Below the pieces are notes generated by a model. It was not told the origin of the DNA, did not search any database, and worked only from the letters and a program-made list of their open reading frames with translations. Position numbers and translations under genes: made by a program. A stretch of DNA of 64,000 bases from Gemmatimonadota bacterium (GTDB taxonomy: Bacteria; JAAXHH01), in contig VXRC01000042.1 in the NCBI GenBank assembly GCA_009838645.1, positions 85,276 through 149,275 on the forward strand. The letters run 5' to 3'. This document shows positions 9,090 through 62,267 of this stretch, one piece after another (position 1 is the first letter of the stretch; each line of letters starts with the position of its first letter).

Positions 9090-9116
9090 CAGTCCTCCCT
9101 GCCTTTTACGTGCCAA

Positions 9117-10946
9117 CTAGTACCATTCCGTCCTGTGGGGGGTACCCGGGAAGAAGACCGCGTCAACCACCAGGGACAAGACGACGCCCAGGAGAAACCC
9201 AAGGATCGCTCCGGTGAAAAACGGTTGGGCGGCGCGGTACATGCGCACGCCGCCGATGCGAATCAATACGATCTGCAGGAACCAGGCGAGGAAAATCGGC
9301 AGAAAGGCGTTCCTCACCACGCCGCCCACGTCCCCGACGGCCATGCCGACGGGATGCAGGGGCCACCACGTGAAAAATGCCCTGCCGGCGATGACCAGGC
9401 CGTTGATCAGTATCCCCGATAGCAGGAACAGCGCTTCGAGGACCCCGATCTGGGCGGCGTTGGTCGCCCAGACGATGGTGCGACCGAAGAAGAACGTACC
9501 CAGGCCGCCGGGCTGGGTATAGAGGTTGTTGGCGCCCACCGTATGGGCGGAATGGACCAGGGAGACGATCGAGACCACGGCGCTTACGCCGATCGCCAGG
9601 CAAATCCAGCCGAACAACCCGCGGCCGCGCCCTTCCAGCCGGTTCTTCAGCCACGCGATGTGCGAAAACCCGACCAGGGTGAAAGTCCGCCAGTTCCGCG
9701 CGAAACCGTTGGCCATGCCCATCACGTTGATGTCCCGCATGGACAGGGAGGCCGTTCCGATCAGGCCGACCGTGAAGTAGTTGGGTTTCACGGTGAGTTC
9801 CGCCATGACCAGCCCCGATTCGGCCACCACCCTGGCGAGTACCAGGTAGAAGGTGAACATGACGGCGAGGAAGAGCACGCCCACCGCAATGGAGAGCCCG
9901 GCGCTGTACAGCCACAGCACCGCGAACGCCGAACCACCCGCGAGCCCGATGAGCGCCCACCTGTAGGAGAACAGTTCCCGCGCCTCGCCGTCGTCCCGGA
10001 CGGGCCGCCATGCGGCGCGCCACACCGAAGCCAGGTGGCGCCTTGCGATCCAGACCAGCCATGCCGCAAAGACGATAACGCCGCCCATGTACTGCATGCC
10101 GGTCAGTCCCCCCTGCACCACGCTGCCGCTCGTGGAAAACATGCCCATCCGGCTCAGCAGCCCCTGTTCGAGCACCCCGAACAGCTGGAAGAACCAGAGA
10201 CTGAAGAGGATCTCCGCGGGCGCGAAGAAAGCGAAGCACAGGGCGTAGACGTTCAGGTACAGGGGTATGCCCGGGAAGTAAGGGGAGATTTCCAGGGTGG
10301 CCACCGCCCCCGGATGAATGGGCAGCATGGGCAGCGCGCCCGAGTATGCCGCGCAGTTCCAGGCCATGGCGGAGAAGGTGAGGAGCAGCCCCGCCAGAAA
10401 AAGCCGGTTGCCGCCGCGTCCGGGACGCGATGAAGCCCGGTCCTCCCCGGATTCCCCGATGAGCCGCAGGGCCGCTTCCGCCAGGGGGAAACGAAGGCGT
10501 TCGTACTCCATCCACTGCCTGCGGAAGATCACCACGATGCAGGCGCCGATCAGCAGGAGGGCGGCGAACAGGCAGAGCCACCAGAACACGGGAGTCATCC
10601 AGACCGACCACGGGATCCCCTGGCCCGGCTGCAGGCCTTCGTAGAATCGCCGGGCCGATTCGGAATCGCTCAGATAAACCCAGTGGGGCAGGTGGGGAAG
10701 GATGAGTTCGTCCCACCGGTTTTCGGGGGAGGCGAAGTAGGCGGGCGCCGCGATGGCGGAAACCATGTAGCGGGTGACCCCCAGGTCGGGCATCATGGAC
10801 GCCGCCCAGCCCATGGCGAAGACCGTGAACAGCTCGGTCCGGGTTAACGCTATGACCGGGCAGCAGGTCCGGCAGATCAGGTTGGGCAGCAGAACGAGGG
10901 CCAGAAAAGGGATCAGGAAGCCGGAGGGCAGGTGGGCGAACAGCAT
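9117..10946 (-). CDS. DUF6785/DUF6784 polytopic membrane protein
   Basis: At least 609 residues with about twelve or more hydrophobic segments, resembling the large DUF6785 proteins (distantly OPT-transporter-like) frequent in Planctomycetes- and Latescibacteria-type genomes. A conserved feature is the aromatic W-W-L-hydrophobic stretch followed by RRQWMEYERLRFPLAEA. The frame stays open upstream of the ATG at 10946 and encodes another likely membrane helix (around RAAGIGLLLSALIGLGTQYL). The true N-terminus is therefore probably near 11040-11110, using a non-ATG start. Function is unknown; transport is a guess. The upstream extension carries DGP repeats. Confidence 0.75.
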   Translation of the reverse strand: MLFAHLPSGFLIPFLALVLLPNLICRTCCPVIALTRTELFTVFAMGWAASMMPDLGVTRYMVSAIAAPAYFASPENRWDELILPHLPHWVYLSDSESARRFYEGLQPGQGIPWSVWMTPVFWWLCLFAALLLIGACIVVIFRRQWMEYERLRFPLAEAALRLIGESGEDRASSRPGRGGNRLFLAGLLLTFSAMAWNCAAYSGALPMLPIHPGAVATLEISPYFPGIPLYLNVYALCFAFFAPAEILFSLWFFQLFGVLEQGLLSRMGMFSTSGSVVQGGLTGMQYMGGVIVFAAWLVWIARRHLASVWRAAWRPVRDDGEARELFSYRWALIGLAGGSAFAVLWLYSAGLSIAVGVLFLAVMFTFYLVLARVVAESGLVMAELTVKPNYFTVGLIGTASLSMRDINVMGMANGFARNWRTFTLVGFSHIAWLKNRLEGRGRGLFGWICLAIGVSAVVSIVSLVHSAHTVGANNLYTQPGGLGTFFFGRTIVWATNAAQIGVLEALFLLSGILINGLVIAGRAFFTWWPLHPVGMAVGDVGGVVRNAFLPIFLAWFLQIVLIRIGGVRMYRAAQPFFTGAILGFLLGVVLSLVVDAVFFPGTPHRTEWY

Positions 10947-43935: not shown

Positions 43936-45324
43936 ATGGCAGCCGGACGGAATGGCACTAATCCAAAGCGAATCGCCATAATCGGCGGCGGGGTATCCGG
44001 GCTCGGGGCCGCATGGGCGCTGCATCGCCACCCGGACCGGTTTGACTTCCGGCTGTACGAGGCCCGGGACCAGGTGGGCGGGAACGCCATCACCGCCGAC
44101 ATGCCGCAGCATGATGGCAGCACCATACCGTTCGACATATCCGTCACCGCGCTGATACCGTCCGTATACCACCACATCCTGTTGTTGATGCGGCAGTTCG
44201 GTATCGAACTGCTCGACACCCGGTTCAACTACAGCGTGAAATACCACGGCCGGGTTTACGCCCACGATTTCGACTCCGACATCCGGCGACAGCTTCAGCC
44301 CGAGATCGCCCGGTTTCAAAGGGTCCTGAAGCGTCTGCACCGGTTCGGCCGGCTGACCCGCTCCCGGTCGAGGCTGATGAACGCCCTCAACCCGTTCAAT
44401 TACATCACGATGCGGACGGTGCTCAACCTGGGCGGATTTTCCGGAGACTTCAGATACAAGATCCTGAAGCCCATGTTCGTCAATTTCCTGATGGCCACGA
44501 ACGTGTTCGACATGCCGGCGGCCCTCTTCGCACGGTACCTGGAGTTCTTCGACATCGAACGCGCGACGCCCATGCAGACGTGGGACCAGGGCACGCGCCG
44601 GATCTACGAAAACCTGACGGCCGGATTCCGGGACAGGATACACCTCAACCGGCCGGTGCGAAAAGTGCACCGCCGGTCCGACTGCGTCGTGATCGAGGAC
44701 TCCGACGGCGTGGAGGAGACGTTCGACGAGGTGGTCTTCGCGTGCAATGCGAACCAGACCCTGATGATGCTCGTCCGGCCCACGTTCCTGGAGCGCTACC
44801 TTCTGTCGTCTATACGCTACGAGAGCGAACTCCACAACCACACGGTCGTGCACTCGGACGCATCCGTCCTTCCGGATAACGAAGTGAGACCATTGGAAAC
44901 GCGGAGCAATCATATCGAACAGTACGGCGCCAGGCCGGACAACTACGAAATCACCTACATCATGCACAACCAGCAGCCGTGGGCCAGCCGGTCCGACAGG
45001 CCCTGTCTGGTGACCTATAATCCCGTCAGTCCGATCGATGAGCGGAAGGTCGTAAGGAAGTACTGGTTCCAGCACATCGTGCACGACGTGCGCCACGTCG
45101 CCTGGCTCGTCCAACTGTTCCGGTTCATCCAGGGCAGGCGACGGACCTGGCACTGCGGCGCTCACACCCTGGTGAACAGCCAGGAGACCTGCTTCGTGAC
45201 CGGCCTCGCCGCCGCCCGGCAGATCGGGGCGGACTATCCCTTTGACGACCCCGAGGCCAGGCGGATGTTCAACTACTACGGCCGGATTCTGCACGGCGGT
45301 CGGTTCAGGAAGGCGAAGGGCTGA
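43936..45324 (+). CDS. FAD-dependent amine-oxidase-fold oxidoreductase
   Basis: 462 residues from the ATG at 43936; an ATG at 43867 is also in frame. KRIAIIGGGVSGLGAAWALH is the FAD-binding beta-alpha-beta motif, and YEARDQVGGNAITADM completes it. ETCFVTGLAAARQIGADYP near the C-terminus is the second FAD-contact motif. It resembles the predicted NAD/FAD proteins of COG2907 and, more distantly, carotenoid or protoporphyrinogen oxidases. COG2907 genes often accompany cyclopropane-type lipid methyltransferases. Here the nearest SAM enzyme is the sterol methyltransferase 2 kb away, so a lipid or isoprenoid substrate is plausible. Confidence 0.82.
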   Translation: MAAGRNGTNPKRIAIIGGGVSGLGAAWALHRHPDRFDFRLYEARDQVGGNAITADMPQHDGSTIPFDISVTALIPSVYHHILLLMRQFGIELLDTRFNYSVKYHGRVYAHDFDSDIRRQLQPEIARFQRVLKRLHRFGRLTRSRSRLMNALNPFNYITMRTVLNLGGFSGDFRYKILKPMFVNFLMATNVFDMPAALFARYLEFFDIERATPMQTWDQGTRRIYENLTAGFRDRIHLNRPVRKVHRRSDCVVIEDSDGVEETFDEVVFACNANQTLMMLVRPTFLERYLLSSIRYESELHNHTVVHSDASVLPDNEVRPLETRSNHIEQYGARPDNYEITYIMHNQQPWASRSDRPCLVTYNPVSPIDERKVVRKYWFQHIVHDVRHVAWLVQLFRFIQGRRRTWHCGAHTLVNSQETCFVTGLAAARQIGADYPFDDPEARRMFNYYGRILHGGRFRKAKG

Positions 45325-45354
45325 CACGGCCCCGTTTCGACCGGCTTCAATGTC

Positions 45355-45414
45355 CTGTCGGCGCACGTCCTGCCTGCGCACGTCGGACCATCGGAAGCCG
45401 GACCACGGGAAACC
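45355..45414. repeat. Two consecutive pairs of 15-bp tandem repeats
   Basis: CTGTCGGCGCACGTC/CTGCCTGCGCACGTC (45355-45384), then GGACCATCGGAAGCC/GGACCACGGGAAACC (45385-45414). They fill the start of the 201-base gap before the Rieske gene. Confidence 0.8.
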
Positions 45415-45468
45415 CGTCCGGATTACGCCTGCTCCAACCTCTCGCCAGCGGCTCGAGCCAAATCCTGC

Positions 45469-45497
45469 TTGTCGCGTTAACGCCTTGTAGTTATAAT
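45469..45497 (+). promoter_or_regulatory. Sigma-70-like promoter for the Rieske oxygenase gene
   Basis: TTGTCG (45469-45474), a 17-base spacer and a perfect TATAAT (45492-45497). A GGAGG ribosome site at 45514-45518 serves the TTG start at 45526. This separates the oxygenase from the flavoprotein gene. Confidence 0.68.
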
Positions 45498-45525
45498 ACT
45501 TACGTGGCACACTGGAGGATAGGCC

Positions 45526-46602
45526 TTGCATACAAACGATACGATCCCAACGCCGGCGGCCGACGCGGATACGGGACTCACCGACCGCCGCGACACGGAA
45601 GGGCTTCATCCCTTCCCGGAAGGCTGGTACCTGGTCACGACCCGCGATACGCTGCGGCGGGAGAAACTGATCGAGAAAAAGTGGATGGGAGAGGATATCG
45701 TCGCGTGGTGCGACGAGGAAGGCCGGGTCTGCGTGGCCGAAGCCGTGTGTCCGCACCTGGGTTCCGACCTGGGACCGAAAGTCGGCGGCAAGGTGTGCGG
45801 CGGCCGCCTGGTCTGCCCGTTCCACGGGTTCGAGTTCGATACGACCGGGCAGTGCGTCGCTACGCCCAACGCCCCGGCGCCGAGAGCCGCCCGGCTGGCC
45901 GTGTACGAGACCAGGGAGATCTTCGGCCTGGTCTTCGCCTGGTATGGACTCGGCGGGCGGCCCGCGCACTGGTTCCTGCCGGACGAACCGCCGGCCGGAA
46001 GCGAGTGGGGCGAGCTGGGTTACCGGACCCTCCGGTTTCGCAGCCATCCCCAGGAAACCGCGGAGAACTCCGTGGACATCGGCCACCTGCGTTACGTGCA
46101 CGGCTACGACAACGTGAACGCGGTCGGATCTGTCACGGTGGAAGGCGCCTACCTGAAGAGCTGTTTCGACTTCAGGCGCGTCCGCAGGGCTTTGGGCGTC
46201 AAGGAGCTCGTCTACGAGGTCTCGGCCGTCACGCACATCCACGGCCTGGGGTACTCCCTCGTGGAGATCCACGAAAAGACCATCGATATGCACGCCAGGC
46301 TCTGGGTTCTCCCGACCCCAATCGACGGCAAGTACATCGATCTCGTGCTGGCCGGCCAGCTGCGGGAGATCCGGAAGCCGCGGCGGTTCGTCTCCGGCTT
46401 GGGATTCCTGCCGTCGAAGCTGCGCCGGCGGTTGATGAACCAGATTCTCCTGTCTCAGCAAAAACGGGATGTGCTGCAGGACGTGGTGATTTGGGAACGG
46501 AAGCGGTTCCGCACGCCGCCCCGGCTGTGCAGGGCAGACGGTCCCATCGGTCTGTACCGGCGCTATTGCCGACAGTTCTACTCGGAACAGCCCCCATCCT
46601 GA
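45526..46602 (+). CDS. Rieske oxygenase, KshA/Neverland-like
   Basis: 358 residues, starting at a TTG with GGAGG 7 bases before it. The Rieske [2Fe-2S] ligands are CPH (C75, H77) and CPFH (C97, H100). The mononuclear iron site is ENSVDIGHLRYVH, with D184, H187 and H192. The C-terminal half is like the sterol- and steroid-active group (3-ketosteroid 9-alpha-hydroxylase; cholesterol 7-desaturase DAF-36/Neverland) rather than the aromatic-ring dioxygenases. A separate ferredoxin reductase would be needed; none is adjacent. It converges on the operon holding the sterol methyltransferase. The substrate is inferred. Confidence 0.83.
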   Translation: MHTNDTIPTPAADADTGLTDRRDTEGLHPFPEGWYLVTTRDTLRREKLIEKKWMGEDIVAWCDEEGRVCVAEAVCPHLGSDLGPKVGGKVCGGRLVCPFHGFEFDTTGQCVATPNAPAPRAARLAVYETREIFGLVFAWYGLGGRPAHWFLPDEPPAGSEWGELGYRTLRFRSHPQETAENSVDIGHLRYVHGYDNVNAVGSVTVEGAYLKSCFDFRRVRRALGVKELVYEVSAVTHIHGLGYSLVEIHEKTIDMHARLWVLPTPIDGKYIDLVLAGQLREIRKPRRFVSGLGFLPSKLRRRLMNQILLSQQKRDVLQDVVIWERKRFRTPPRLCRADGPIGLYRRYCRQFYSEQPPS

Positions 46603-47469
46603 TCAGGGCGGCCCCTCCAGTTCCGCCAGGGCCTCGAGAACGTCCTGCTGGATGAACGACTCGAAGGCGTCCCGTGCCGGGAGTCCGGCCGCCTTCGACA
46701 GCAATGCCACGGCCCGCTCCCGGCCACCCTCTCTATCGAGTTCGGGTAAATTGAGCGCGTATTCCAGCAGGACGATCATCGAATCCGGCGCGAGTTCCAG
46801 CGCCCGCTCGAAATGGATGACCGCGCTCTCGCGGTTTCCCTTGTACAGGAACCGGGCTACGCGCCCGGCCCGGGCGATACCGGCATGCCAGCCCCCGAAG
46901 GCCATGTGCGCATCGGCGAAGTCGGGATCCATGGCAAGCGCGTTCTCGAGCAGTCCGCGGACCCTTCCGGCCAGGCCCCGGCGAAGCGCCGTAAACGTGC
47001 CGACGGTCAGCGCATATCGGCCAACGGCGTGCGCGGACTGGTAATACGCTTCTTGATTGGTCGAATCGGCGCGTACCGCCTCTTCGCCGAGTTTCATCGC
47101 ACGTTCAAAGAACCCCTTCCGATCATCACTGGCCGCAACGTAGTGGCCGTGCACCGCGAGCGATTGCGCCGCCAGGGCGTAGCCCACGGAGGTCCCGAGG
47201 GCTTCCGCCAGGTCTGCCGCCTCGAGAAAGCGGCCCTCCTCAAAAGCAATCCGAGCGTCGTCGATCGACCGGGCGTCCGCGCCGGACTGGGCGTCCACGC
47301 TGGACTGGGTGTCCGCATCGGACCGGGCGTTCGCATCGGACTGGGCGTCGTCGATCGACCGGGCGTCCGCGCGGGACTGGGCGTCCGCGCCGGCCACGAC
47401 GGCTATACCGGCCGCCAGGAGTAAAAACCCCCCGACCACCGTGAGATGTACAAATCGCGTAAGGATCAT
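46603..47469 (-). CDS. Exported TPR-type repeat protein with hexapeptide-repeat linker
   Basis: 288 residues. A signal peptide (1-30) is followed by about seven hexapeptides of the form A/T-Q/R-S-x-x-D/N (residues 30-72), rich in Asp, Ala and Ser. The rest is helical with TPR-like units (ARIAFEEGRFLEAADLAEAL, ESAVIHFERALELAPDSMIVLLEYA split across helices). It is probably a periplasmic scaffold. It ends one base after the convergent Rieske gene and lies 24 bases downstream of the sterol methyltransferase gene, so it is likely the last gene of that operon. Confidence 0.72.
   Translation of the reverse strand: MILTRFVHLTVVGGFLLLAAGIAVVAGADAQSRADARSIDDAQSDANARSDADTQSSVDAQSGADARSIDDARIAFEEGRFLEAADLAEALGTSVGYALAAQSLAVHGHYVAASDDRKGFFERAMKLGEEAVRADSTNQEAYYQSAHAVGRYALTVGTFTALRRGLAGRVRGLLENALAMDPDFADAHMAFGGWHAGIARAGRVARFLYKGNRESAVIHFERALELAPDSMIVLLEYALNLPELDREGGRERAVALLSKAAGLPARDAFESFIQQDVLEALAELEGPP
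47253..47396. repeat. Eight-unit 18-bp tandem array in the TPR protein gene
   Basis: Consecutive 18-bp units from 47253, most beginning GGGCGTCC or GGGCGTCG and ending GGACT, GACC or similar. They encode the acidic hexapeptide linker behind the signal peptide. Units at 47253 and 47343 are nearly identical, suggesting block duplication. Confidence 0.92.
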
Positions 47470-47493
47470 CTCGACACCTTTATTCAGTCGAAT

Positions 47494-48528
47494 CTAAAGA
47501 GGTTTACGAGCCAGGAAACAATACAGCGGGGTAAAGATACCCGTCTTGCCGCCCGAGACATAAGCGTCCGCGGTGCGATCAAGAAGCCGGACGACTTCCG
47601 ATGAACCCTTGGGGAGCAGACGCAACACTTCGGCCATCTTCGATCCTGCGATGATGGCTTTACGGCCCCATGGAAGCCTGCGCAGCATGTTCCCCAACAT
47701 GCCGCGACTACTCTCCATGGAACGGTACCAGGGCGTGGATGGTCCTTTCCGGTTGTCGCGGTCCATCCCTTCGATGACGTGGAATCCCGCCGCTTCAAGT
47801 GCGCGATTAACTTCCCCGAACGTCGCGATGTCGTTCAGTGCAATGCCTCGCTTTAGGTTCTGCTCAATGACACGGTGTCCGGCGTCTTCCGGATCGAACT
47901 TGTCGGTCAGGCACATTTCCTGACCCCAGAACAGCGCTCCTGGTTTGAGTACTCGGAATATCTCCTCGAACGCGCGTACCTTGTCAGGCGCGTGGCACGT
48001 CGACTCGATGGCATAGCCCCTGTCGAACGTCTCATCTTCGAAGGCGCCCATATCCATAAAGCTGCACGCCTCGTAATCGACCATGTGATCGAGCCCCGCT
48101 TCCGCGTTCAACTTTCTTGCCTTTTCCAGTTGGACTTCACTGATGTTGATACCGACGACCTTGACACCGGCCTCACGGACGACGCGGCGCATTGGGCCGC
48201 CGATTCCGCAACCAACGTCCACCACCGTCATACCCGGTTTCATGTCCAGCTTCGAGATCATCAACCGCTGATGACGTGCTATGGATTCTTCCAGACTCTC
48301 ATCGGGTGTGAGTGGTACGAAATGCAGGGATTCGTTCCAACCCCATACCATGAACCCGCTGCAAAGGTCATAGTACTCTTTCACCGTTGCCGCGTGGTCG
48401 TACCCGCTTGCGCCATCGGCTTGCGGAGCCGCCCGCGCGATCCAGCCATCGAAGTGCCGGACACGACCCTTGACGCCCGTTCCCTGGTACGCCTCCCGTA
48501 ATTCTCTGGACAGTTTACCCAGTTGCAA
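47494..48528 (-). CDS. Sterol C-24 methyltransferase homologue (SMT/Erg6 type)
   Basis: 344 residues, the length of eukaryotic SMT. All diagnostic regions are present in order: WGWNESLHF (62-70; sterol-binding aromatic region), VVDVGCGIGGP (102-112; SAM motif I), YAIESTCHAP (162-171; the SMT-specific motif, usually YAIEATCHAP), FRVLKPG, and a C-terminal Sterol_MT_C domain (about 275-343) with LLPKGSSEV and SGGKTGIFTPLY. The enzyme family transfers methyl from SAM to C-24 of delta-24 sterols. Bacterial SMTs are rare. The gene lies 38 bases after the GPP34-P450 gene. Sterol identity of the substrate is inferred from family and neighbours. Confidence 0.92.
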   Translation of the reverse strand: MQLGKLSRELREAYQGTGVKGRVRHFDGWIARAAPQADGASGYDHAATVKEYYDLCSGFMVWGWNESLHFVPLTPDESLEESIARHQRLMISKLDMKPGMTVVDVGCGIGGPMRRVVREAGVKVVGINISEVQLEKARKLNAEAGLDHMVDYEACSFMDMGAFEDETFDRGYAIESTCHAPDKVRAFEEIFRVLKPGALFWGQEMCLTDKFDPEDAGHRVIEQNLKRGIALNDIATFGEVNRALEAAGFHVIEGMDRDNRKGPSTPWYRSMESSRGMLGNMLRRLPWGRKAIIAGSKMAEVLRLLPKGSSEVVRLLDRTADAYVSGGKTGIFTPLYCFLARKPL

Positions 48529-48566
48529 TGCTTAGGCCTCTCCTCTGGTGTTTCGTCTTCACGGCT

Positions 48567-50594
48567 TCAGACCTGTAGCTCGCGTCTCTGCTCGGAGATG
48601 ACGAACTTCAGCTTCTTGCTCGGTTTCAAAGACGGAAACGGATTGAACCGCAGTTTATAGTTCGCGGGCGACATTTCGATCCTGAAGTAGTGCGTCAGCA
48701 TCAGCAAGTTGACGGCCAGTTGCAGTTCCATCCAACGGGTGCCGAGACACATGTGCGTGCCCAGGCCGTACGGCGCGTACCCGGGGCTGCGATGTTCATT
48801 GCGCGACGGCAGGTAGCGGTCGATGTCGAAGGTGTACGGGTCGGGAAAGACATCGCTCATGTAATGCGTGGCAGTCGGCGCGATATGGAGTCGTTCTCCC
48901 AGGGGCAGTTCGTAACCCTCGAACACAAACGTATTCATTACATTTCGAATCGACATGGGAACGATCGGGTACATGCGCATGCACTCCATGAGAAAGCGGT
49001 GCGTGACGTCCATCGCGGATGGTGTGAAGGCCTCGACATCCGGATCGCCATTCGCGAATATGGCGTCGGCTTCATTTCGTATTTTCTCATAGAGCGCGGG
49101 CCGCGACGCCATGGCGTATACGACCAGGCTGAACGTATCGCCAAGGTACACGCTGGCAATCAAAGCAGCGGAAAAGGCGAACCGAAGGTTGGACTCCGGC
49201 AGGAACTGCGGGTCGCTCGCGTGCAGGCTGAGGTAGTCGTCCACCAGGTCCCGTGGACATTCGGCCCGCTGGGCAGGGGTATGGACCTTCTCGATTCGTT
49301 CCATCAGGGTATCCAGGGTTTTCGCCCGTCGTTTCATACCCGGTGTGTTCAGCATGAATTTGGGCAGAATCCTGGCGACATGCACGCTGAGCGCCCTTTC
49401 CTTGAACTTCATCAGATCGTCCATGACGTCCTGAGTATCGACGCCGATGAACAGGGGCGAGAGTTGTGCGTTGATCATCCGACGGCACATGGTCGTAGCG
49501 GAATAGGATTCTCCGACGTTCCAGCTTGCCATGTAACTCCGCGCCTGGTCGTAGAGCTTTTCCAACTGCCCGCCCAGTCTGCCGCGGGAATACGCCGGCG
49601 ACAGGTTCTTGCGCAGCCGGAAGTGATCGGCGCCGTCCAGTGAGGGCAACAGGCCGGACGCGCCGTAGACCTTCTCAAACTCGCTGAAGTAGTCCCTGGC
49701 TCTCAGATACATGCGCCCGTGTTTATGCACCCAGCGGTTTGCCTCGAGGCCGGCCAGGAAGGTCATGGGTTGGGCGAACGGAGGATGGACCTTGAACACC
49801 GGGCCGTACTCCTGCGCAAGGTTCCCGAAGAGCGCGTTGAGGTTGCCGTCCCGAATATGCCGGTTCAGCAGCAGCTTGCTCAGCGAAACCGTCGGAATCT
49901 TCTTGACGAAAGCGGGACGGCGAAGCGTCGGACCGGCGAGATTGTGCGAGACCGCTTCGGTTATGGACCGACCGATCAGATCCATCTGGCAGATGGCCTG
50001 AATGCGCGCCTCCGTTTCTTCGTCAAGCTGGAACATGAACCGGAAAACATCGCACGTGTTGATGAGGCTTATAACGATTACGTCCCTCGGGTCCGGGATC
50101 TCGTTCATGAAGATCGCCCGGCTGATCCGCGTCCTTACGAATTGACTCGCCGTACTGGTCTCGACGTCGCTGTACAACTCCATCTTCCAGTCGGTGCGGG
50201 CCAGCGTCCAGAACTCGCCGTCGTGGTGCTCCAGGATACTCATTTCGACCAGGCGGTCCAGCACCGAATCGATGATCGTCTCCGCGCGAGGCGCGAGATG
50301 TTCGATCCAGTACCGGGTGTTATGCCGGTTCGTATCGCTCGCGATTTCATCCAGAATGGGGTCGATCGAAGGGTTGCCCGTTTTCGTGGCGTCGAGCAGG
50401 AACAGGGATTCCATGTCCGTGTCGATGCGGGATCTGAGTGAAAGCTCTGCAAGCACGGCGCCGACCACGGCGCAGTTCAGGTCCCATCCGGGTACCTGGT
50501 GGAAGTAGCCGGTCTCCTCGTTGAGGAGCATCAGGATGAGTTCCTGGGTCAAAGTGAGAGGCTGGGGTTTCACGCCCCTTTTAGTATCAGTCAT
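48567..50594 (-). CDS. GPP34 (GOLPH3)-cytochrome P450 fusion protein
   Basis: 675 residues from the ATG at 50594, which shares its A with the RND stop codon (TAATG). Residues 13-216 match the GPP34/GOLPH3 fold: LTLTQELILMLLNEETGYF, GAVLAELSLRSRI, ILDEIA, and the C-terminal PDPRDVIVISLIN and EARIQAICQMDLIG segments. Residues about 225-670 are a P450: HFRLRKNLSPAYS (helix C), GDT in helix I, ExxR at 537-540 (ECMR) and heme Cys 616 in YGLGTHMCLG. GPP34 proteins bind acidic lipid headgroups and are normally stand-alone, so this may hold the P450 at a membrane. I know of no described GPP34-P450 fusion. Confidence 0.88.
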   Translation of the reverse strand: MTDTKRGVKPQPLTLTQELILMLLNEETGYFHQVPGWDLNCAVVGAVLAELSLRSRIDTDMESLFLLDATKTGNPSIDPILDEIASDTNRHNTRYWIEHLAPRAETIIDSVLDRLVEMSILEHHDGEFWTLARTDWKMELYSDVETSTASQFVRTRISRAIFMNEIPDPRDVIVISLINTCDVFRFMFQLDEETEARIQAICQMDLIGRSITEAVSHNLAGPTLRRPAFVKKIPTVSLSKLLLNRHIRDGNLNALFGNLAQEYGPVFKVHPPFAQPMTFLAGLEANRWVHKHGRMYLRARDYFSEFEKVYGASGLLPSLDGADHFRLRKNLSPAYSRGRLGGQLEKLYDQARSYMASWNVGESYSATTMCRRMINAQLSPLFIGVDTQDVMDDLMKFKERALSVHVARILPKFMLNTPGMKRRAKTLDTLMERIEKVHTPAQRAECPRDLVDDYLSLHASDPQFLPESNLRFAFSAALIASVYLGDTFSLVVYAMASRPALYEKIRNEADAIFANGDPDVEAFTPSAMDVTHRFLMECMRMYPIVPMSIRNVMNTFVFEGYELPLGERLHIAPTATHYMSDVFPDPYTFDIDRYLPSRNEHRSPGYAPYGLGTHMCLGTRWMELQLAVNLLMLTHYFRIEMSPANYKLRFNPFPSLKPSKKLKFVISEQRRELQV

Positions 50595-53500
50595 TATATT
50601 TGCCCTCCCGTCATCAGACGCAGATGAATGGTGGAAAGCGCGGGAACGATCATCATGAGAATGGCCGTGACGAAGATAATGCCGCAACCAAGCGATGCGG
50701 CAAAAGGAATCAGGAACTGCGCTTGAATGGCGGTTTCCAGAATCAGCGGTGTGAATCCGAGAAACGTCGTCAGGGAAGTGAGCATAATCGGACGAAAACG
50801 GCCCTTTGCGCCCTCTATGATCGCAGTCTGTACCGGGTTGCCTTCCTTAAGTTTCTGATCGATGAAATCAATCATGACCAGGGAATCGTTCACGACCACG
50901 CCGCTAAGGCCGAAGATACCCAGAAAGGACACGGCGCTCAGTGCTACCCCGAGGACCCAGTGGCCCAGGATCACTCCGATGAATCCGAAAGGGATAACCG
51001 CCATGATAATGAACGGTTTGGTATAGGATCGCAAGGGGATGGCGAGCAGTGCGAAAATCATGATCAGCGCGATCGCGAACCCGCGGTACAGCGCATCCAG
51101 GGAATCGAGCTGCTGCTGTTGTTCACCTCCGAACGTGTAGGTCAGATCCGGGTACACGGCGGTCAATGCGGCGAGGATCGAACCCTCCAGGATGCTGTTG
51201 GCCTGGTCGCCGGAGATCACCGCGGCGTCCACGTCCGCGGAGACCGTGACGACGCGCTGACCATCCTTCCGCCGAACGGACGGCGGCGAAACGCCCGGTT
51301 TCAGCGTGGCCACGCTGACGACCGGGACCTCGGCCCCACCCGGTGTGCGGACCAGGTACCTTTCGATATCGGTGATGGAACTCCGCGCATCGGCGGGCAG
51401 ACGCACGTAGACGCGGACCTCTTCCCGGCCGCGCTGGACCCGGACGGCATCCGCGCCAAAAAACGCCGCGCGCGTTTGTCCGGCCAACGCCTCCAGCGTC
51501 AGATCCAGGGTACGCGCTTCCGGCCGTAGTTCAAGCTGCATTTCCGGAATGCCAGGGGTGTGATCCGACCGGATGTCGTGGACGCCCGCCACTTCACGAA
51601 GACCGTCGACCACGGCGTTCGCAATCCGGGCGAGGATCTCCGGATCCGGATGCGACAGTAAGGCCTCGACCGGGTTGCCCAGGTCAAAGACCGCGCCACT
51701 GAAGGTGAGGCCACGCACGTAGGGAAGCACCCCCACCTCTTCCCGCCATGCCTGCACGACTTCTCCGGATGAGATCTGCCTTTGCTGCGCACTCAGGAGT
51801 TTGAATTCAATGGTAGCGATGTTGGCCTGGGGATTGAGGGTAGGGGTCGGATTAAGCCCGCCTTCGCGTCTCGATCCCATACCGACGGTCACCGTTACGC
51901 CGCTCAGCAGCGGTGGCGCATCCTCGGGCCGGCCACTAGAAAGCCGTTCCATGACCCGATGACCCGCGGCCTCCAGTTCCCGTGCCACCTCGTATGTCCT
52001 CGGGGCGGTCGTCCCATCAGGCATCTCCAGGACGACCGTCGCGAAGTCCCCCTCGATGTCAGCGGCCAGCGTAGTGGGTACGATGCCCGCCGGCAACAGC
52101 GAGATACTGAGCACGAGCATGCCCACGGCGCCTCCCATCGTGATCGCGGGTTGATCCGTCGCGAACCGCAGTGCTCGGTCCAACGGGCCCTGCACGAACC
52201 GGTTCAGCAACCCGTCTACCCGGCCCTGGATTCGTGTGAAGAAACGTTCGAATGCATTTACCGGCACCCAATCCGGACCCTTCAAATGGGACAGGTGGTT
52301 GGGTAACACCAGCAGCGATTCGACCAGGGAGACCAATAGCATGGCGATGATGATGACCGGCAGTGCCCGCCATACGTCACCGATGCCGCCGGGGATGAAC
52401 AGCAGCGGGACGAAAGCGACGACCGAAGTGAGGACCGCGAAAGTCAACGGCACCTTTATCCGTCGTACACCACGGATCGCGGCTGTAACGCCGGGCGTTC
52501 CCCGACTGCGTTCGTATTGAATGTGCTCGGCTACGACGATGGCGTCGTCGACGACGATCCCTATGGCGAGTACGAAGGAAAACAGGCTGATTTCGTTGAT
52601 CGACACACCGAACGCATTCATGACGGCCAACGCGCCTATACCCGAAACGGCGAGGCCGACGGCGACCCATACCGCAAGCCGGATCTGGAGAAACAGGCTG
52701 AGCGCGATCAACACCAGCAACAGCCCCAGGATGCCATTCTTGATCAGGAGATCGGCGCGTTCCTCATAGACCTGGGATTCGTCATTCCACATGGTGACGG
52801 CCACGCCGTCCGGCAATGCCGGGATCACCTCGTTTTCCAGATGATCCCGGACAGTTGTTGCGACGTCCATCACCTGTTCGCCATCAGCCCGGAACACCTC
52901 GACGAATACCGCGGGATGGTTCTGATGCCGGACGATAAGGTCGGATTCCTGAAAACCGTCGTGGACCTCGGCGATATCTCCGAGACGAACGACGGTTCCG
53001 TCACTCCTGCTGAGCAGGACGATATCTTCGAAATCCTGCTGGTCGTAGTTCTGTCCGAGGGTCCGGATTCGTACCTGGGATTCCCGGGTATCGATACTGC
53101 CGGCAGACAGGTTCAAGGAACTGCGACGGATGGTACCGGCGACGTCGGTGAGGGTCAGTCCAAGGGCGCCCAGCCGATGAAGCGGTACCTCGACGGAGAT
53201 TTCGTATTTGCGAACGCCGCTGACGTCGACTTGGGACACGGACGGAAGTGCCGCGAGCTCGTCCTCGATCTGATACGCCAATTCCTTCAGCGAGCGTTCG
53301 GACACGTCGCCGTAGACGATGAGCCGCATCAAGCTCATGCGGTTGTCCATCTCCCGGAAACTGGGACGATCGGCGCCGGCCGGGAAAGACTGAATGCGAT
53401 TGACCGCTGACTCGATATCGTTCAACGCCTGCGCCATGTCCGTACCGGAATCCATTTGAACCCGCACGGACGCTATTCCCGGGGCCGCCACGGACTTGAC

Positions 53501-53770
53501 CGCCTTCACGTCATCCAGTCCGCTGACCTGATCCTCGATCTTGACGACGATCGACTCCTCGATCTCCTCCGGCGTGGCGCCTGGATAGGCCATCGACACT
53601 TCAATGTGATAGAAGGGCGTGGTGGGCCAAGCTTCCCGGTCGAGGCCGGTCAGCGAAACCAAGCCCGCGGCTACGATGGCCCACATCAACAGATTGGCGG
53701 CCACGCTGTTGCCCGCCATGTAGGCGATCGGACCGGACGCTTCTTTATGATTGCCGTTATCCATGCTCAT
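50594..53770 (-). CDS. RND family efflux permease (HAE1-like)
   Basis: 1058 residues with twelve expected membrane helices and two large periplasmic loops, the standard RND shape. Motifs: AYPGATPEEIEESIVVKIED near the N-terminus, IGIVVDDAIVVAEH in helix 4 (the two proton-relay aspartates), and FGLSGVVVNDSLVMIDFI in helix 10. It exports amphipathic or lipophilic substrates through a TolC-type channel using the proton gradient. It overlaps the membrane-fusion gene by ATGA and the P450 gene by TAATG, so pump and enzymes are translationally linked. Confidence 0.93.
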   Translation of the reverse strand: MSMDNGNHKEASGPIAYMAGNSVAANLLMWAIVAAGLVSLTGLDREAWPTTPFYHIEVSMAYPGATPEEIEESIVVKIEDQVSGLDDVKAVKSVAAPGIASVRVQMDSGTDMAQALNDIESAVNRIQSFPAGADRPSFREMDNRMSLMRLIVYGDVSERSLKELAYQIEDELAALPSVSQVDVSGVRKYEISVEVPLHRLGALGLTLTDVAGTIRRSSLNLSAGSIDTRESQVRIRTLGQNYDQQDFEDIVLLSRSDGTVVRLGDIAEVHDGFQESDLIVRHQNHPAVFVEVFRADGEQVMDVATTVRDHLENEVIPALPDGVAVTMWNDESQVYEERADLLIKNGILGLLLVLIALSLFLQIRLAVWVAVGLAVSGIGALAVMNAFGVSINEISLFSFVLAIGIVVDDAIVVAEHIQYERSRGTPGVTAAIRGVRRIKVPLTFAVLTSVVAFVPLLFIPGGIGDVWRALPVIIIAMLLVSLVESLLVLPNHLSHLKGPDWVPVNAFERFFTRIQGRVDGLLNRFVQGPLDRALRFATDQPAITMGGAVGMLVLSISLLPAGIVPTTLAADIEGDFATVVLEMPDGTTAPRTYEVARELEAAGHRVMERLSSGRPEDAPPLLSGVTVTVGMGSRREGGLNPTPTLNPQANIATIEFKLLSAQQRQISSGEVVQAWREEVGVLPYVRGLTFSGAVFDLGNPVEALLSHPDPEILARIANAVVDGLREVAGVHDIRSDHTPGIPEMQLELRPEARTLDLTLEALAGQTRAAFFGADAVRVQRGREEVRVYVRLPADARSSITDIERYLVRTPGGAEVPVVSVATLKPGVSPPSVRRKDGQRVVTVSADVDAAVISGDQANSILEGSILAALTAVYPDLTYTFGGEQQQQLDSLDALYRGFAIALIMIFALLAIPLRSYTKPFIIMAVIPFGFIGVILGHWVLGVALSAVSFLGIFGLSGVVVNDSLVMIDFIDQKLKEGNPVQTAIIEGAKGRFRPIMLTSLTTFLGFTPLILETAIQAQFLIPFAASLGCGIIFVTAILMMIVPALSTIHLRLMTGGQI

Positions 53771-54981
53771 GGGGTCTGGCCGGTCTCAGTCTGGACGCGC
53801 ATGCCTTCCGTCGTAAACCGGATCCCGCCGGTGACGGCGGCCTGGCCGTCTTCGAGATCACCCGTCACATACGCTCTATCGCCGTTACGCTGCAGTACCT
53901 GCACCGGAACGATATGCACTGCGCCGGCATCACGCACGATCCAGATCTCGTTGCCTGATTGCAGCGCCGCTCGCGGAACCAGATAATAATCATCCCGCTC
54001 AAGACCGTTGATTTCCACCTCGACGTATTTACCAACCAGCAGGGGGGGACTGCCGCCAGGACGAGCCGTGCCGTCCAAGGGCTGCCCCGATCGAAAGGGA
54101 TCCGGTACGCGTACGATCACGTCGATGGTGCGCGTTTGCCGGTCTAGGTATGGCTCGCTTCGGTCCACGTAACCGGTCCAGGCATAGGATCCTTCACCGA
54201 AACGGGCCACCACGCGCGCACCGATGCTCCGGTTCCCGTCGCCCGCCGAAAGCGACCACAACCCAGGTATTAATGCGGCATCGGAATCGGATAGCGGCAC
54301 GACGACTTCCACGGCATCGGCGGCGAAAACGCTTGCGACCGGCTGGCCGGCGGCAACGATCTGCCCCACATCCACGGATTCTTCCTGTACGAAGCCGTCG
54401 AAGGGTGCGGTTACGTGGGTTCTGGACAGGGCGAGATTGGCCTCGGCGAGTCGGGCTTCATCGCGATCCAGTGCGGCTCGGGCCGCCTTCAGCTGCGGAT
54501 CCCTCAACGCGAGTGGATTTGCGTTGTCGTCCGAAGACGCATTCCCTTTGCGCGCGGTGTAGAGATCGTGCTGCGCACGGGCAATCGACGCCTGTTCCTC
54601 CTCCCGCAGCAAGGCCAGTTGACTGGCCGCGAGACTGGCCTCCGCTTCCCGCACCCGGTACCGGTAGTCGACCTCCTCGATGCGGAAGAGCGTATCCCCC
54701 GCCGCGATCCGGCCGCCACTCAGGAACCCCGGGTCTACCCACGCGATTCTGCCGCCTACCTGCGTAACGACATCGATCTCCGCGCTCGGTCTGACCGTGC
54801 CGGAACCGAACACCGGAACGGGTCCGGATCCCGCGGTGACCAGGCCGGTCTGAACGAAGGGAATCTGGGGCGGTTGTTCGGTGCGCTTCGGCTCCGGGGC
54901 CAGCGAAATCAACAGGGCGGCCAATGCCAGGGAAACGCCGAGTATGCCGCCGGCAACGAGAAAACTGGTTAAACGCGACAT
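53767..54981 (-). CDS. RND membrane-fusion (periplasmic adaptor) protein
   Basis: 404 residues. An N-terminal anchor helix (about 6-28) is followed by the lipoyl/hairpin pattern: GGRIAWVDPGFLSGGRIAAGD, a long coiled coil around residues 95-190 (EASLAASQLALLREEE and AARAALDRDEARLAEANLAL), and THVTAPFDGFVQEESVDVGQ. The C-terminal beta-barrel and membrane-proximal domains follow. It links the RND permease to the TolC-type channel. It lies 6 bases from the tolC-type gene and overlaps the RND gene by 4. Confidence 0.9.
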   Translation of the reverse strand: MSRLTSFLVAGGILGVSLALAALLISLAPEPKRTEQPPQIPFVQTGLVTAGSGPVPVFGSGTVRPSAEIDVVTQVGGRIAWVDPGFLSGGRIAAGDTLFRIEEVDYRYRVREAEASLAASQLALLREEEQASIARAQHDLYTARKGNASSDDNANPLALRDPQLKAARAALDRDEARLAEANLALSRTHVTAPFDGFVQEESVDVGQIVAAGQPVASVFAADAVEVVVPLSDSDAALIPGLWSLSAGDGNRSIGARVVARFGEGSYAWTGYVDRSEPYLDRQTRTIDVIVRVPDPFRSGQPLDGTARPGGSPPLLVGKYVEVEINGLERDDYYLVPRAALQSGNEIWIVRDAGAVHIVPVQVLQRNGDRAYVTGDLEDGQAAVTGGIRFTTEGMRVQTETGQTP

Positions 54982-54987
54982 GGCTAA

Positions 54988-56517
54988 TCACTCCGTTGGA
55001 GGACGGGCAGGGAGACGCCCGTCCGGCTGGGTCTGCCGCAGCATGAGGCGCTCACTGTCGTTGGCGGTCCAGGTGCCGCCCAGTGCACGATGCAGGGCGA
55101 GACGGGCGTAACCCAGGTCACGTTCCGCCGCCGCAAGCATGGACTGCGCGGCCAATCGGGACTGTTCCGCCGCCAGGAACGATTCGTAAGCACCCACACC
55201 CGATACGTATCTCTGCTCCTGCAGTGCCGATTCGGACCGGGATTCATCGGAGATGGCGGCCAGCAGCGCATGTCTGCGGCGGCTGGCGTCGAGTCCCACC
55301 AGGGCCGATTCGACTTCGTTTACCGCGGTGACCACGGAGCGTCCGTAAGCGGCCGCGGCCACGTTCAGCCGTGCCTCCGCGATTGCTATATTGTTCCGGA
55401 TCCGGGAGCCTTGGAATACGGGACCCAGCAGGTTCGCGGTGAGGTTCCTGAACCACTGATTGGGGTCGAACCATTCGCTCGATTCGGTGCTCTGCAGGCC
55501 GATCGCGCCCTGCAGAGACAACCTCGGCAGCAGGTCGGCGCGCCGAGCGCCGACGGAAAACCGCGCCGCCTCCACCCGCTGCAATGCCGCGAGCACATCG
55601 GGCCGCTGGACCATGAGATCGGCCGGAATGCCCGCGGGGACGGGGTCGAGTGAAGGCGAAGGACCGGCGGAATCGGACAGCGTATGTGCCAGGTCGGCCC
55701 GGAAGCCGCCCATGAGTATCCAAAGGCGCCCCTCGGCGTCCGCACGCAGCGCTTCGATCTGCGGCAGTTCAGCCTGGGCTTCGCGCAGTCTGCGCCTCGC
55801 CGCATGGAGATCCCCTAATTCGATCAGTCCCCGCTCGTACCGGGACTCGGCAAGCGATTCCTGTTGTTGCAGGACGGCCACGATCTCGCCGGCCAGCCCC
55901 TGTTGCCGGCGCAGACTGGAAATCTCCAGATAGGTACGGACGGTCTCGGCCAGCACCCCCATGCGCGCACTGAGATAGTCCGCCTCGGTGGCCGCCAGTT
56001 CGGCCTCGGCGGATCGCGTATCGTTGCCGTTGCGGCCCCAGAAATCGAGTTCGTAGGCGAATTCCATGCTTAGAGTATAGGTGGTGAGTCCCAGACGGTC
56101 GGGAATCTCCACGCCCGCCGCGCTCAGGGCTTCCGGATCCAGACCGACTTCCTCCAGCTGCGCGCCGATGCCCGCGTTCGTAGGACCGTCGAATTCGTTC
56201 ACGCTCACCGAAGGCTGAAGCAGGGGAAACGCCGAAGCCCGCGCGACGCCTGCCCGGCTCCGGGCCTGCTGTACCCGGGCGACCGCTCCGGCCAGGTCGA
56301 AATTCGAAGAGAGCACCTCCTCGACTACCCGGTCGAGTACCGGATCTTCAAATGACTTCCACCACGCCAGGGGCCTGTATGCACCCGAATCCGCCACGCC
56401 GGCGGCAAACGCGCCGGGCGTCTCCGGTACCGATTCGAGCACCGGAAAGTTTCGGTTCGGCGCCAGGGAACAGGCCGAGAGGAGCAAGATGGAGGCGAGA
56501 ACGGAACAACGCACCAT
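54988..56517 (-). CDS. TolC/NodT-type outer-membrane efflux lipoprotein
   Basis: 509 residues from the ATG at 56517 (MVRCSVLASILLLSACSLAP), which gives a perfect lipoprotein signal with lipobox LSAC. The frame is open further upstream, but that stretch holds a 20-bp repeat whose period breaks frame, supporting the downstream start. Two outer-membrane-efflux repeats are seen, each with the coiled-coil pattern (VARVQQARSRAGVARASAFPLL and ALQRVEAARFSVGARRADLLPR, each with interruptions). It is the first gene of the export operon and should form the trimeric exit duct. Confidence 0.9.
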   Translation of the reverse strand: MVRCSVLASILLLSACSLAPNRNFPVLESVPETPGAFAAGVADSGAYRPLAWWKSFEDPVLDRVVEEVLSSNFDLAGAVARVQQARSRAGVARASAFPLLQPSVSVNEFDGPTNAGIGAQLEEVGLDPEALSAAGVEIPDRLGLTTYTLSMEFAYELDFWGRNGNDTRSAEAELAATEADYLSARMGVLAETVRTYLEISSLRRQQGLAGEIVAVLQQQESLAESRYERGLIELGDLHAARRRLREAQAELPQIEALRADAEGRLWILMGGFRADLAHTLSDSAGPSPSLDPVPAGIPADLMVQRPDVLAALQRVEAARFSVGARRADLLPRLSLQGAIGLQSTESSEWFDPNQWFRNLTANLLGPVFQGSRIRNNIAIAEARLNVAAAAYGRSVVTAVNEVESALVGLDASRRRHALLAAISDESRSESALQEQRYVSGVGAYESFLAAEQSRLAAQSMLAAAERDLGYARLALHRALGGTWTANDSERLMLRQTQPDGRLPARPPTE

Positions 56518-60566: not shown

Positions 60567-62267
60567 ATGACCGGCATGCGTACACGTACCGCCAGATCGG
60601 AGGCATCTTTGTCCGCAACATCTTTGTCCGCGACATCTTCATCAGCGGCGTCACCATCCGTGGCGGCTTCGTCCCCGGACGGGTCCTGCCGCGACCTGCT
60701 GGGCCGCATCGGCCTGCCCGAACCCGTGTCCTCGCTCGCGGGACGGGACTGGGACGCGGTCGTCGTGGGCGCCGGCCACAATGGCCTGGCCTGCGCGGCC
60801 TACCTCGCCCGTGCCGGGAAGCGGGTGCTGGTCCTGGAAGCCCGGGAACGCGTGGGTGGCGCCTGCACGCTCGAAGAGACCTGGCCGGGATACCGCGTGT
60901 CGCCCTGCGCCTACCTCGCCGGCCTGCTCCATCCCCTGGTGATCGAGGAATTGGATTTCGCACGCTACGGCTACCGATGGACGCCGGCCGAAGCGGGCAT
61001 GTTCGTACCCTTCGAGGACGGGTCGAGCGTACAGTTGTGGGAGGACGACGACCGCTGCCTGGAGGAGATCCGCCGCCTGTCGCCCCGGGACGTGAGGGGT
61101 TTCGAGGCCATGTACGCGCCCATGCGGCGCATCCGGGAGGCCCTTCGTCCGCCGGGCAAGGAAGACATCTGGATCGGGCGGGCGCCGACCCGGGAACAGA
61201 TCGAAGAACGTCTCAACGGCGACCGGGAGGCCATCGGTATGCTCTTCGAATGGTCCATGGTCGAATACGTCGAGCGGTACCTCGAAGACGAGCGGCTGCG
61301 GATGGCCCTGACCGGCCAGGGCGTGATCGGGACGAACGCCAGCCCCTGCGAGCCCGGGACCGCCTCCGTACACGTTTTCCACTCCACGGGCACCATGGGC
61401 GGCATGCCCGGCATGTGGGGGTACGTGCAGGGCGGCATGGGCATGGTGTCCTTCATGCTGTGCGATATTGCGCGCGACTCGGGCGCCGTGGTGGCCGCGG
61501 GCGTGCCCGTCGCCCGCATCGTGCCCGGAGAGGGCGTGGAGCTGGAGGGCGGCGAACGCGTCCGCGCGAAGGCGGTCGTATCGAACGCCGATCCCCGGGT
61601 CACGCTGCGACTCCTCGGCGACGCAGCCGACGGGGCGTGGAAGGACCGCGTGGAATCGGTGCCCCAAACCGGCGCGACCGTCAAGATCAACATGGCTCTC
61701 GCCGAATTGCCGGATTTCACCTGCCGGCCTGGGACGGACGAGGACCACCACCGGGGCCAGGTCAACATCCCCCTTACCGCACGGCAATGGCACGAATACC
61801 ACGGCATGGCCGGAGAAGGCCGGTTGCCCCCGCGCCTCTGGGAGGAACTCTACTTCCACACCGCCCACGACCCGAGCGTGGCGCCGGCGGGCCGTCACAC
61901 CATGAGCATCTTCGCCCAGTTCGTCCCCTACGACTTCGCCGAGGGTGACTGGGATTCCCGGAGGGAGGAGGTGGGGAGGCTGGCCCTGGCATCGCTCGGC
62001 CGCTTCTGCAGCAACATTCCCGACGCCGTCCTGCACATGGACGTCATGGGTCCGCCGGATATCGAGAAGAAGGTGGGACTGACCGGCGGCCATATCTTCC
62101 AGGGCGAGATCCTGCCTGCCTTCATGTGGGACAAGCGGCTCGAACCGCGGACGCCCATGCCCGGGGTCTACCTGTGCGGGGCTTGCACCCACCCGGGCGG
62201 CAGCGTGATTGCCGTCAACGGGCGCAACGCGGCGATGGAAGTGCTGGGGATGTACGGGGATCAGTAG
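60567..62267 (+). CDS. FAD-dependent oxidoreductase, phytoene-desaturase/PYROXD2-like
   Basis: 566 residues. The first 50 residues are a low-complexity Ser/Ala leader with five-residue repeats. The FAD motif follows at WDAVVVGAGHNGLACAAYLA and VLEARERVGGACT. The C-terminal PGVYLCGACTHPGGSVIAVNG, with its GG-x-V segment, is typical of the CrtI/PYROXD2 group. CrtI members desaturate carotenoids, but PYROXD2-like proteins have no settled bacterial function. It overlaps the convergent proS stop by 7 bases. Confidence 0.85.
   Translation: MTGMRTRTARSEASLSATSLSATSSSAASPSVAASSPDGSCRDLLGRIGLPEPVSSLAGRDWDAVVVGAGHNGLACAAYLARAGKRVLVLEARERVGGACTLEETWPGYRVSPCAYLAGLLHPLVIEELDFARYGYRWTPAEAGMFVPFEDGSSVQLWEDDDRCLEEIRRLSPRDVRGFEAMYAPMRRIREALRPPGKEDIWIGRAPTREQIEERLNGDREAIGMLFEWSMVEYVERYLEDERLRMALTGQGVIGTNASPCEPGTASVHVFHSTGTMGGMPGMWGYVQGGMGMVSFMLCDIARDSGAVVAAGVPVARIVPGEGVELEGGERVRAKAVVSNADPRVTLRLLGDAADGAWKDRVESVPQTGATVKINMALAELPDFTCRPGTDEDHHRGQVNIPLTARQWHEYHGMAGEGRLPPRLWEELYFHTAHDPSVAPAGRHTMSIFAQFVPYDFAEGDWDSRREEVGRLALASLGRFCSNIPDAVLHMDVMGPPDIEKKVGLTGGHIFQGEILPAFMWDKRLEPRTPMPGVYLCGACTHPGGSVIAVNGRNAAMEVLGMYGDQ
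60603..60662. repeat. Four 15-bp repeats at the 5' end of the PYROXD2-like gene
   Basis: Units GCATCTTTGTCCGCA, ACATCTTTGTCCGCG, ACATCTTCATCAGCG and GCGTCACCATCCGTG run from 60603 to 60662. They encode A/T-S-x-S-A/V pentapeptides in frame. Confidence 0.88.

Follow-up and report, generated by a model that had tools for sequence, protein, structure and literature searches.

Sterol gene clusters and their transfer are known in sponge bacteria (PMC9531527), as are functional bacterial sterol methyltransferases (SMTs), several of which, from sponge symbionts, were proven in vitro to alkylate C-24 (PMC10070321), and sterol transport by the BstABC system (PMC10942540). The sponge-bacterial sterol-modifying genes described so far have mostly been studied together with a cyclase. 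In this report, we examined a stretch of 64,000 nucleotides from a Gemmatimonadota bacterium (hereafter the window; assembly GCA_009838645.1, contig VXRC01000042.1, positions 85,276 to 149,275), which carries a fusion of a GPP34 domain with a cytochrome P450, together with an SMT, a Rieske oxygenase, a flavoprotein, an exported tetratricopeptide repeat (TPR) protein and a tripartite pump of the resistance-nodulation-division (RND) superfamily. Our main conclusion, which we consider probable, is that these genes belong to a horizontally spread cassette for sterol tailoring and trafficking in sponge and coral symbionts, acting here on sterols that the cell does not make. What is new is the tailoring and export cassette with its fusion enzyme, and the fact that it occurs in genomes without a cyclase: in the literature open to readers without subscription, our search found no description of the GPP34-P450 fusion, of the cassette, of its transporters, or of its presence in cyclase-less genomes.

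As judged from its gene content, the source genome (3.8 Mb, 97% complete) has sterol-type modifying genes without a recognisable route to the sterol skeleton. An earlier note on this DNA, made from the window alone, had remarked that squalene epoxidase and cyclase were missing there, and this absence extends to the whole source genome, in which neither squalene/oxidosqualene cyclase (PF13243) nor squalene epoxidase (PF08491) was found. Among 11 congeners, likewise, no cyclase exceeded the cut-off, one of them (G010) giving a sub-threshold match of 20 bits. An external sterol is therefore the natural reading of the substrate. The only Sterol_MT_C gene of the source genome is the SMT of the window, a CYP51-like query of that genome returned no P450 besides the fusion, and one ERG4/ERG24-type reductase is present (138 bits). 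The squalene-synthesis genes HpnC, HpnD and HpnE are there as well (G000:C47, locus L103:5656-9016), without a detectable squalene or oxidosqualene cyclase.

Distribution was assessed at two scales, a survey of 96 genomes and a broad scan of 84,980 species genomes (G and L numbers are our own, for genomes and loci). In the survey, 12/12 genomes of the genus have the full-length fusion (in G011 as two pieces, in G010 in a divergent form); a single distant genome, G086, has it as well. The broad scan recovered it in 67 loci, all on metagenome-assembled genomes (MAGs), from about nine phyla; the taxa are Latescibacterota, Gemmatimonadota, Chloroflexota, Nitrospirota, Verrucomicrobiota, Binatota, Alpha- and Gammaproteobacteria, Acidimicrobiia and Bdellovibrionota. 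All of these MAGs are apparently derived from sponges or corals, as judged from isolate names and with not every record checked; names such as RHO, COS, IRC, APA and Plut suggest demosponges (for the species, see PMC8163846) and Porites.

The partners of the fusion are conserved across this range, but their order and orientation are shuffled. A Rieske gene lies near the fusion in 49/67 loci, an SMT in 43/67 and the flavoprotein in 27/67, most of these last carrying a relative 74-95% identical. The SMT stands downstream of the fusion on the same strand in 19 cases, downstream on the opposite strand in 14, upstream on the same strand in 7 and upstream on the opposite strand in 1; since it occurs in all four arrangements, the association survives rearrangement. 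We rejected a chance meeting of these genes, because the cassette is conserved across about nine phyla.

Transporters of the RND superfamily form part of this neighbourhood in 49/67 loci, and they make up 20% of the fusion's immediate neighbours, 9% of the genes at a distance of two or three and about 1% of those at six or more. Three types were distinguished. The HAE-1 type of pump seen in the window, usually with a periplasmic adaptor (membrane fusion protein, MFP) and an outer-membrane factor (OMF), is present in 22 loci; the phyla in which it stands next to the fusion include Gemmatimonadota, Latescibacterota and Binatota. Fourteen loci, mainly of Chloroflexota, have an MMPL transporter with a sterol-sensing domain, and 13, mainly of Proteobacteria, an MMPL protein with a sterol-sensing-domain match, often accompanied by a LolA-like lipoprotein and a porin-like protein. 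Some Chloroflexota loci also have an LppX/LprG-type lipoprotein beside a major facilitator superfamily transporter. Because the enzymes pair repeatedly with lipid-type RND transporters of different subfamilies, a trafficking role is supported, and the pairing argues for transport of the enzymes' product. For the suggestion of the earlier note that the pump may move this product, the support is the repeated association with RND-superfamily transporters. Within the genus, pump orthologues accompany the P450 in 12/12 members and are 82-100% identical where complete (82-96% for the permease of the congeners), while in P450-less relatives from the family and order the best match to the pump reaches 38% over long alignments, so that a close orthologue is missing there. 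Pump and P450 therefore co-distribute in the genus and not in its relatives of the family and order, as the note's reading would have it, but other phyla keep the enzymes without this pump, mostly with a different RND-superfamily transporter.

In five loci the fusion, the flavoprotein or both are part of a de novo sterol cluster or adjoin one: L031 and L042 (Nitrospirota), L060 (Gammaproteobacteria), L081 (Opitutales, Verrucomicrobiota) and L087 (Binatia, Binatota). The flavoprotein stands beside the fusion and such a cluster in Nitrospirota and in Binatota. All five carry a protein in which squalene epoxidase and oxidosqualene cyclase (OSC) are fused and a CYP51-like P450. Most have in addition an ERG24-type reductase, an SdmA-like Rieske protein and an SdmB-like gene, which score 237 bits in L081, 405 bits in L042 and 189 bits in L031, respectively. 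The OSC model scores 724 bits in both L081 and L087, and the epoxidase and both cyclase domains are seen in L081. The epoxidase-cyclase proteins are single chains of 1129-1160 amino acids (aa) (L081:2614-6093 and L087:8940-12326, both on the minus strand), and most of the other cassette genomes with an OSC have long frames of this kind; our search of the same literature found no report of such a fusion. An OSC-type cyclase is present in about 16/50 cassette genomes, as judged from scores and frame lengths, and a squalene-hopene-type cyclase in about 18/50. The sterol part of the sterol or triterpenoid tailoring that the earlier note had proposed is thus well supported by comparison, through the Sterol_MT_C domain, the linkage of five loci to de novo sterol clusters, and a co-occurrence that is strong although rearranged across phyla.

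The tree of the fusion mixes phyla: for example, an Opitutales row groups with Latescibacterota (support 100) and the Nitrospirota are split. Since the tree is mixed in this way and the GC content dips over the P450 and RND genes, horizontal spread of the cassette among sponge and coral symbionts is supported by the comparison. The dip itself, to 58-60% over these genes against about 63-65% around them, fits acquisition from elsewhere. Binning error does not explain the spread over phyla, because three fusion loci (L034, L064 and L077) are on records labelled as whole chromosomes and five Acidimicrobiia loci share one conserved chromosomal context. A pair of near-identical fusions with the same gene order around them, in L045 (Rhodospirillales) and L046 (titled Chloroflexota), was not counted as transfer; given their near-identity in the tree, L046 is probably mis-binned.

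Two types of fusion, about 81-92% and 57% identical to that of the window, occupy the same chromosomal region in the genus, between ECF/pump genes and HyuA/HyuB genes, which apparently reflects allele replacement. The alleles can be compared in L065, L066 and L067 versus L021, L022 and L076, one type having an SMT and the other a gene resembling 3beta-hydroxysteroid dehydrogenase. An ERG24-type reductase exceeds the threshold in 7/8 genus genomes with the first fusion type (not in fragmented G005) and in 0/3 with the second (G001, G004 and G006). In the source genome this reductase lies 5 kb from the gene of a membrane protein (L102:14317-14985, minus strand) whose counterpart in sterol loci of Nitrospira and Binatia is 61-64% identical. 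The family concerned (about 223-245 aa, no Pfam match) occurs in the Nitrospirota and Binatota sterol or cassette loci L031, L041, L042 and L087, and in 11/96 genomes of the survey, ten of the genus plus G086, the only one of the 96 with a full-length fusion outside the genus; the family would seem to mark this sterol system. G086, in which no cyclase was found, has an ERG24-type reductase directly adjoining its fusion.

At the level of individual proteins, the P450 motifs of the fusion are well kept, with ExxR in 65/67 alignment rows and the heme cysteine loop in 66/67. A profile search gave CYP51 of Methylococcus capsulatus as best match (118.7 bits), CYP51 structures being nearest, and the AlphaFold2 model (pLDDT 82.7) matches the same protein first, among other P450s. 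The GPP34 domain, compared with Vps74 to check the phosphatidylinositol 4-phosphate pocket, aligned weakly (E 0.07) over the N-terminal half; we propose that this domain may tether the P450 to the membrane. A second GPP34-P450, 30% identical, is encoded in L077 (5261-7285, with 8407-9792, both plus strand), adjoining a second Rieske gene and a gene for a fatty-acid-desaturase-family protein, which suggests that the family of GPP34-P450s is wider.

In the SMT tree, those of the cassette make up a single clade, apart from the canonical YE-type SMTs (support 100). The SMT of the window retains YAIESTCHAPDK and PWY, while the canonical sterol-binding region I motif YE(Y/F)GWG is absent from it, the region reading MVWGWN. 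Methionine occupies the region I tyrosine position in 38/38 cassette SMTs of the tree, the canonical types having YE or FE. Mutations of region I in yeast and plant SMTs are reported to alter products. A 667-aa SMT 'fusion' in L040 was rejected as a gene-calling artefact, its N-terminus matching no family.

The Rieske alignment has CxH...CxxH and DxxHxxxxH in 49/49 rows, and the protein of the window combines the Rieske centre, the mononuclear iron motif and the KshA_C domain that define the 3-ketosteroid 9alpha-hydroxylase/Neverland group; the Neverland-type motif GGxVxG..CPFHG, as a strict pattern, is found in 3/49 rows and is an uninformative discriminator. The nearest relative of the flavoprotein in the PDB is the amine oxidase LkcE.

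Homologues of the TPR protein adjoin the cassette in 10 other loci from at least three phyla. Profile searches returned generic TPR matches only, and the Foldseek matches of its AlphaFold2 model (pLDDT 82) include the TPR domain of PTPIP51, a TPAT T-component and BstC (7t1s), the last with E 6e-5 and TM 0.58/0.70 (0.70 by target), among many TPR matches. As for the pump, an ACR_tran permease, an adaptor and an OEP channel in one operon make it an RND tripartite system of the HAE-1 type; its permease scores only 18 bits with HpnN against 541 with ACR_tran, and does not have an HpnN-type architecture. The likeness to BstA drawn in the earlier note is consequently a loose one, and the nearer resemblance to the Bst system is that of the TPR protein, whose predicted fold matches BstC among other TPR proteins.

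Taken together, sterol tailoring is the most economical reading, because an SMT is present, true sterol pathways adjoin the cassette in some genomes, and an ERG24-type gene is kept in genomes lacking a cyclase. We envisage that an exogenous sterol, from the host, its diet or sterol-making neighbour bacteria, would enter the cell envelope, and that the membrane-tethered GPP34-P450 and the KshA-type Rieske enzyme would oxidise the ring or the side chain. The cassette SMT would alkylate a side-chain double bond with S-adenosylmethionine and the flavoprotein would change a double bond, the enzyme classes being read from sequence and the reactions inferred. The tripartite pump and the exported TPR carrier, to judge from the repeated association with transporters, would then move the product to the outer membrane or outside.

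Several points weigh against this reading. Non-sterols are also among the substrates of the P450, Rieske and flavoprotein families, and the canonical sterol-binding motif is changed in the cassette SMT. Drugs are the usual cargo of HAE-1 pumps; in other phyla the cassette enzymes do without this exact pump, and 0/4 Nitrospirota loci have an RND gene nearby. TPR folds are common, so that the match to BstC is weak evidence. Finally, the absence of a cyclase rests on MAGs, and an unrecognised cyclase is possible, squalene genes being present.

The alternative that survives best is detoxification, in which harmful host lipids or steroidal defence compounds would be oxidised and methylated and then expelled by the pump, the benefit being protection. 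The MAGs are host-associated, the oxygenases adjoin efflux genes, and the tripartite HAE-1 pump belongs to a drug-export family. Linkage to de novo clusters in sterol-making cells, however, and pairing with sterol-sensing-domain MMPL transporters fit the building of a metabolite better, and C-methylation is an unusual step of detoxification; we regard this explanation as unlikely. It is improbable that the substrate is instead a hopanoid or a linear triterpene: HpnC/D/E in the source genome and the squalene-hopene-type cyclases counted above would agree with it, but the genus of the window has no squalene-hopene cyclase over threshold, and the Sterol_MT_C domain and the SdmA/SdmB, CYP51-like and ERG24-type partners are those of sterol enzymes. 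Breakdown of host sterol for carbon, started by KshA-like and P450 steps, has in its favour the KshA_C domain of the Rieske protein, and P450s begin cholesterol side-chain degradation in actinobacteria. In the neighbourhoods of the 67 loci, to which the search was confined, no steroid-degradation gene was recognised, and neither an SMT that alkylates nor a pump for export agrees with catabolism, which we find highly improbable. That the efflux pump is a general one and the enzymes are a separate, unrelated unit merely co-located with it in the genus is very improbable, for although Nitrospirota and some others carry the enzymes without a nearby RND gene, the RND and P450 genes overlap translationally, the two co-distribute within the genus and not in its relatives, and the same pump type adjoins the fusion in several phyla.

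The genes of the window are listed in Table 1.

Table 1. Genes of the cassette locus in the window, in order from the first operon gene
Feature	Position	Strand	Evidence
NodT-type outer-membrane efflux lipoprotein (OMF), first operon gene	54988..56517	-	OEP 139 bits; TIGR01845 267.6 bits (cut-off 210); lipobox LLSAC
RND periplasmic adaptor (MFP)	53767..54981	-	TIGR01730 160 bits (cut-off 94.9)
HAE-1-type RND permease	50594..53770	-	ACR_tran 541 bits
GPP34-cytochrome P450 fusion	48567..50594 (start corrected from 50687)	-	GPP34 98 bits (cut-off 29.1); p450 131 bits
Cassette-type SMT	47494..48528	-	Methyltransf_11 69 bits; Sterol_MT_C 61 bits (cut-off 21.7)
Exported TPR protein, candidate periplasmic sterol carrier	46603..47469	-	Signal-peptide-like N-terminus
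Rieske oxygenase with KshA_C catalytic domain, convergent	45526..46602	+	Rieske 61.5 bits; KshA_C 80 bits
Amine-oxidase-fold flavoprotein, convergent	43936..45324	+	Amino_oxidase 69 bits

The eight genes that the earlier note had placed here are all present, with agreeing domain matches, and its single operon on the minus strand holds as a tight run with overlaps or gaps of at most 38 bp: the RND and MFP genes overlap by 4 bp, and the remaining gaps are 6 bp (OMF-MFP), 38 bp (P450-SMT) and 24 bp (SMT-TPR). From the plus strand, the genes for the Rieske protein and the flavoprotein converge on this run, as the note says. One gene model had to be changed: the P450 gene has both of its domains, but starts at an ATG rather than at the TTG at 50687. 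The ATG is preferred because it overlaps the RND stop codon by one base (TAATG), gives a protein of 675 aa, the same length as its relatives, and retains GPP34 and p450 domains. Some 4 kb past the pump (60660-62264, plus strand), a second flavoprotein is encoded, the start of which resembles the phytoene desaturase/carotenoid isomerase type.

If a sterol tailoring and trafficking cassette is indeed what these symbionts share, sterols would be a common currency of the holobiont, processed also by bacteria that do not make them. The cassette may be relevant to the question of which organisms make the unusual sterols taken as fossil markers of early sponges, and the defined SMT clade offers a test set for the C-26 or repeated C-24 alkylations behind these disputed sponge biomarkers. 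The enzyme for C-26 alkylation has been stated to be undiscovered (Brown et al. 2023, PMC10070321). A more specific idea, which we hold to be distinctly unlikely, is that the GPP34-P450, the Rieske enzyme, the flavoprotein and the cassette SMT, whose region I is altered, jointly make non-standard sponge sterols such as those with C-26-alkylated side chains, so that many phyla, including bacteria that make no sterols, would finish the sterols of the host or of neighbours by means of a shared mobile cassette.

How does the locus compare with the systems already described? The de novo clusters of our five linked loci appear to be the clusters of steroid genes (CSGs) that Kelly et al. 2022 reported from Ircinia symbionts (PMC9531527), which span about ten phyla, with evidence of transfer, and comprise ERG24, CYP51 and LSS with a flanking SMT. 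The text of that paper that was searched reports none of the GPP34-P450 fusion, the KshA-type Rieske protein, the flavoprotein or the pump cassette, and the genus of the window, unlike the CSGs, has no cyclase over threshold. With the CYP51 family, which provides the nearest solved relatives by profile and by fold, the fusion P450 shares about 20% identity to the nearest structure, under the family level of about 40%, and its N-terminal GPP34 domain distinguishes it further; in the sterol clusters it stands beside a separate CYP51-like gene and not in place of it. The SMTs of Brown et al. 2023, from sponge symbionts, have the same pair of domains, a methyltransferase and Sterol_MT_C (PMC10070321), whereas the SMT of the window is 35-41% identical to the canonical-type SMTs of the surveyed loci and is without YE(Y/F)GWG. 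Rieske chemistry on sterols is common to our oxygenase and the SdmA/SdmB C-4 demethylases, but at 37.7 bits (cut-off 600) it is not SdmA, the 405-bit match in the de novo clusters being a different Rieske gene. For transport, BstA is HpnN-like, whereas the pump of the window is an HAE-1 tripartite system with its own adaptor and outer-membrane channel, and no BstB-like protein was seen; HpnN-like MMPL proteins are present in the proteobacterial and Chloroflexota versions of the cassette. Our locus resembles BstABC of M. capsulatus (PMC10942540) in having an RND transporter and a TPR protein, here a candidate periplasmic carrier, beside sterol-type genes, and the predicted fold of the TPR protein of the window resembles that of BstC.

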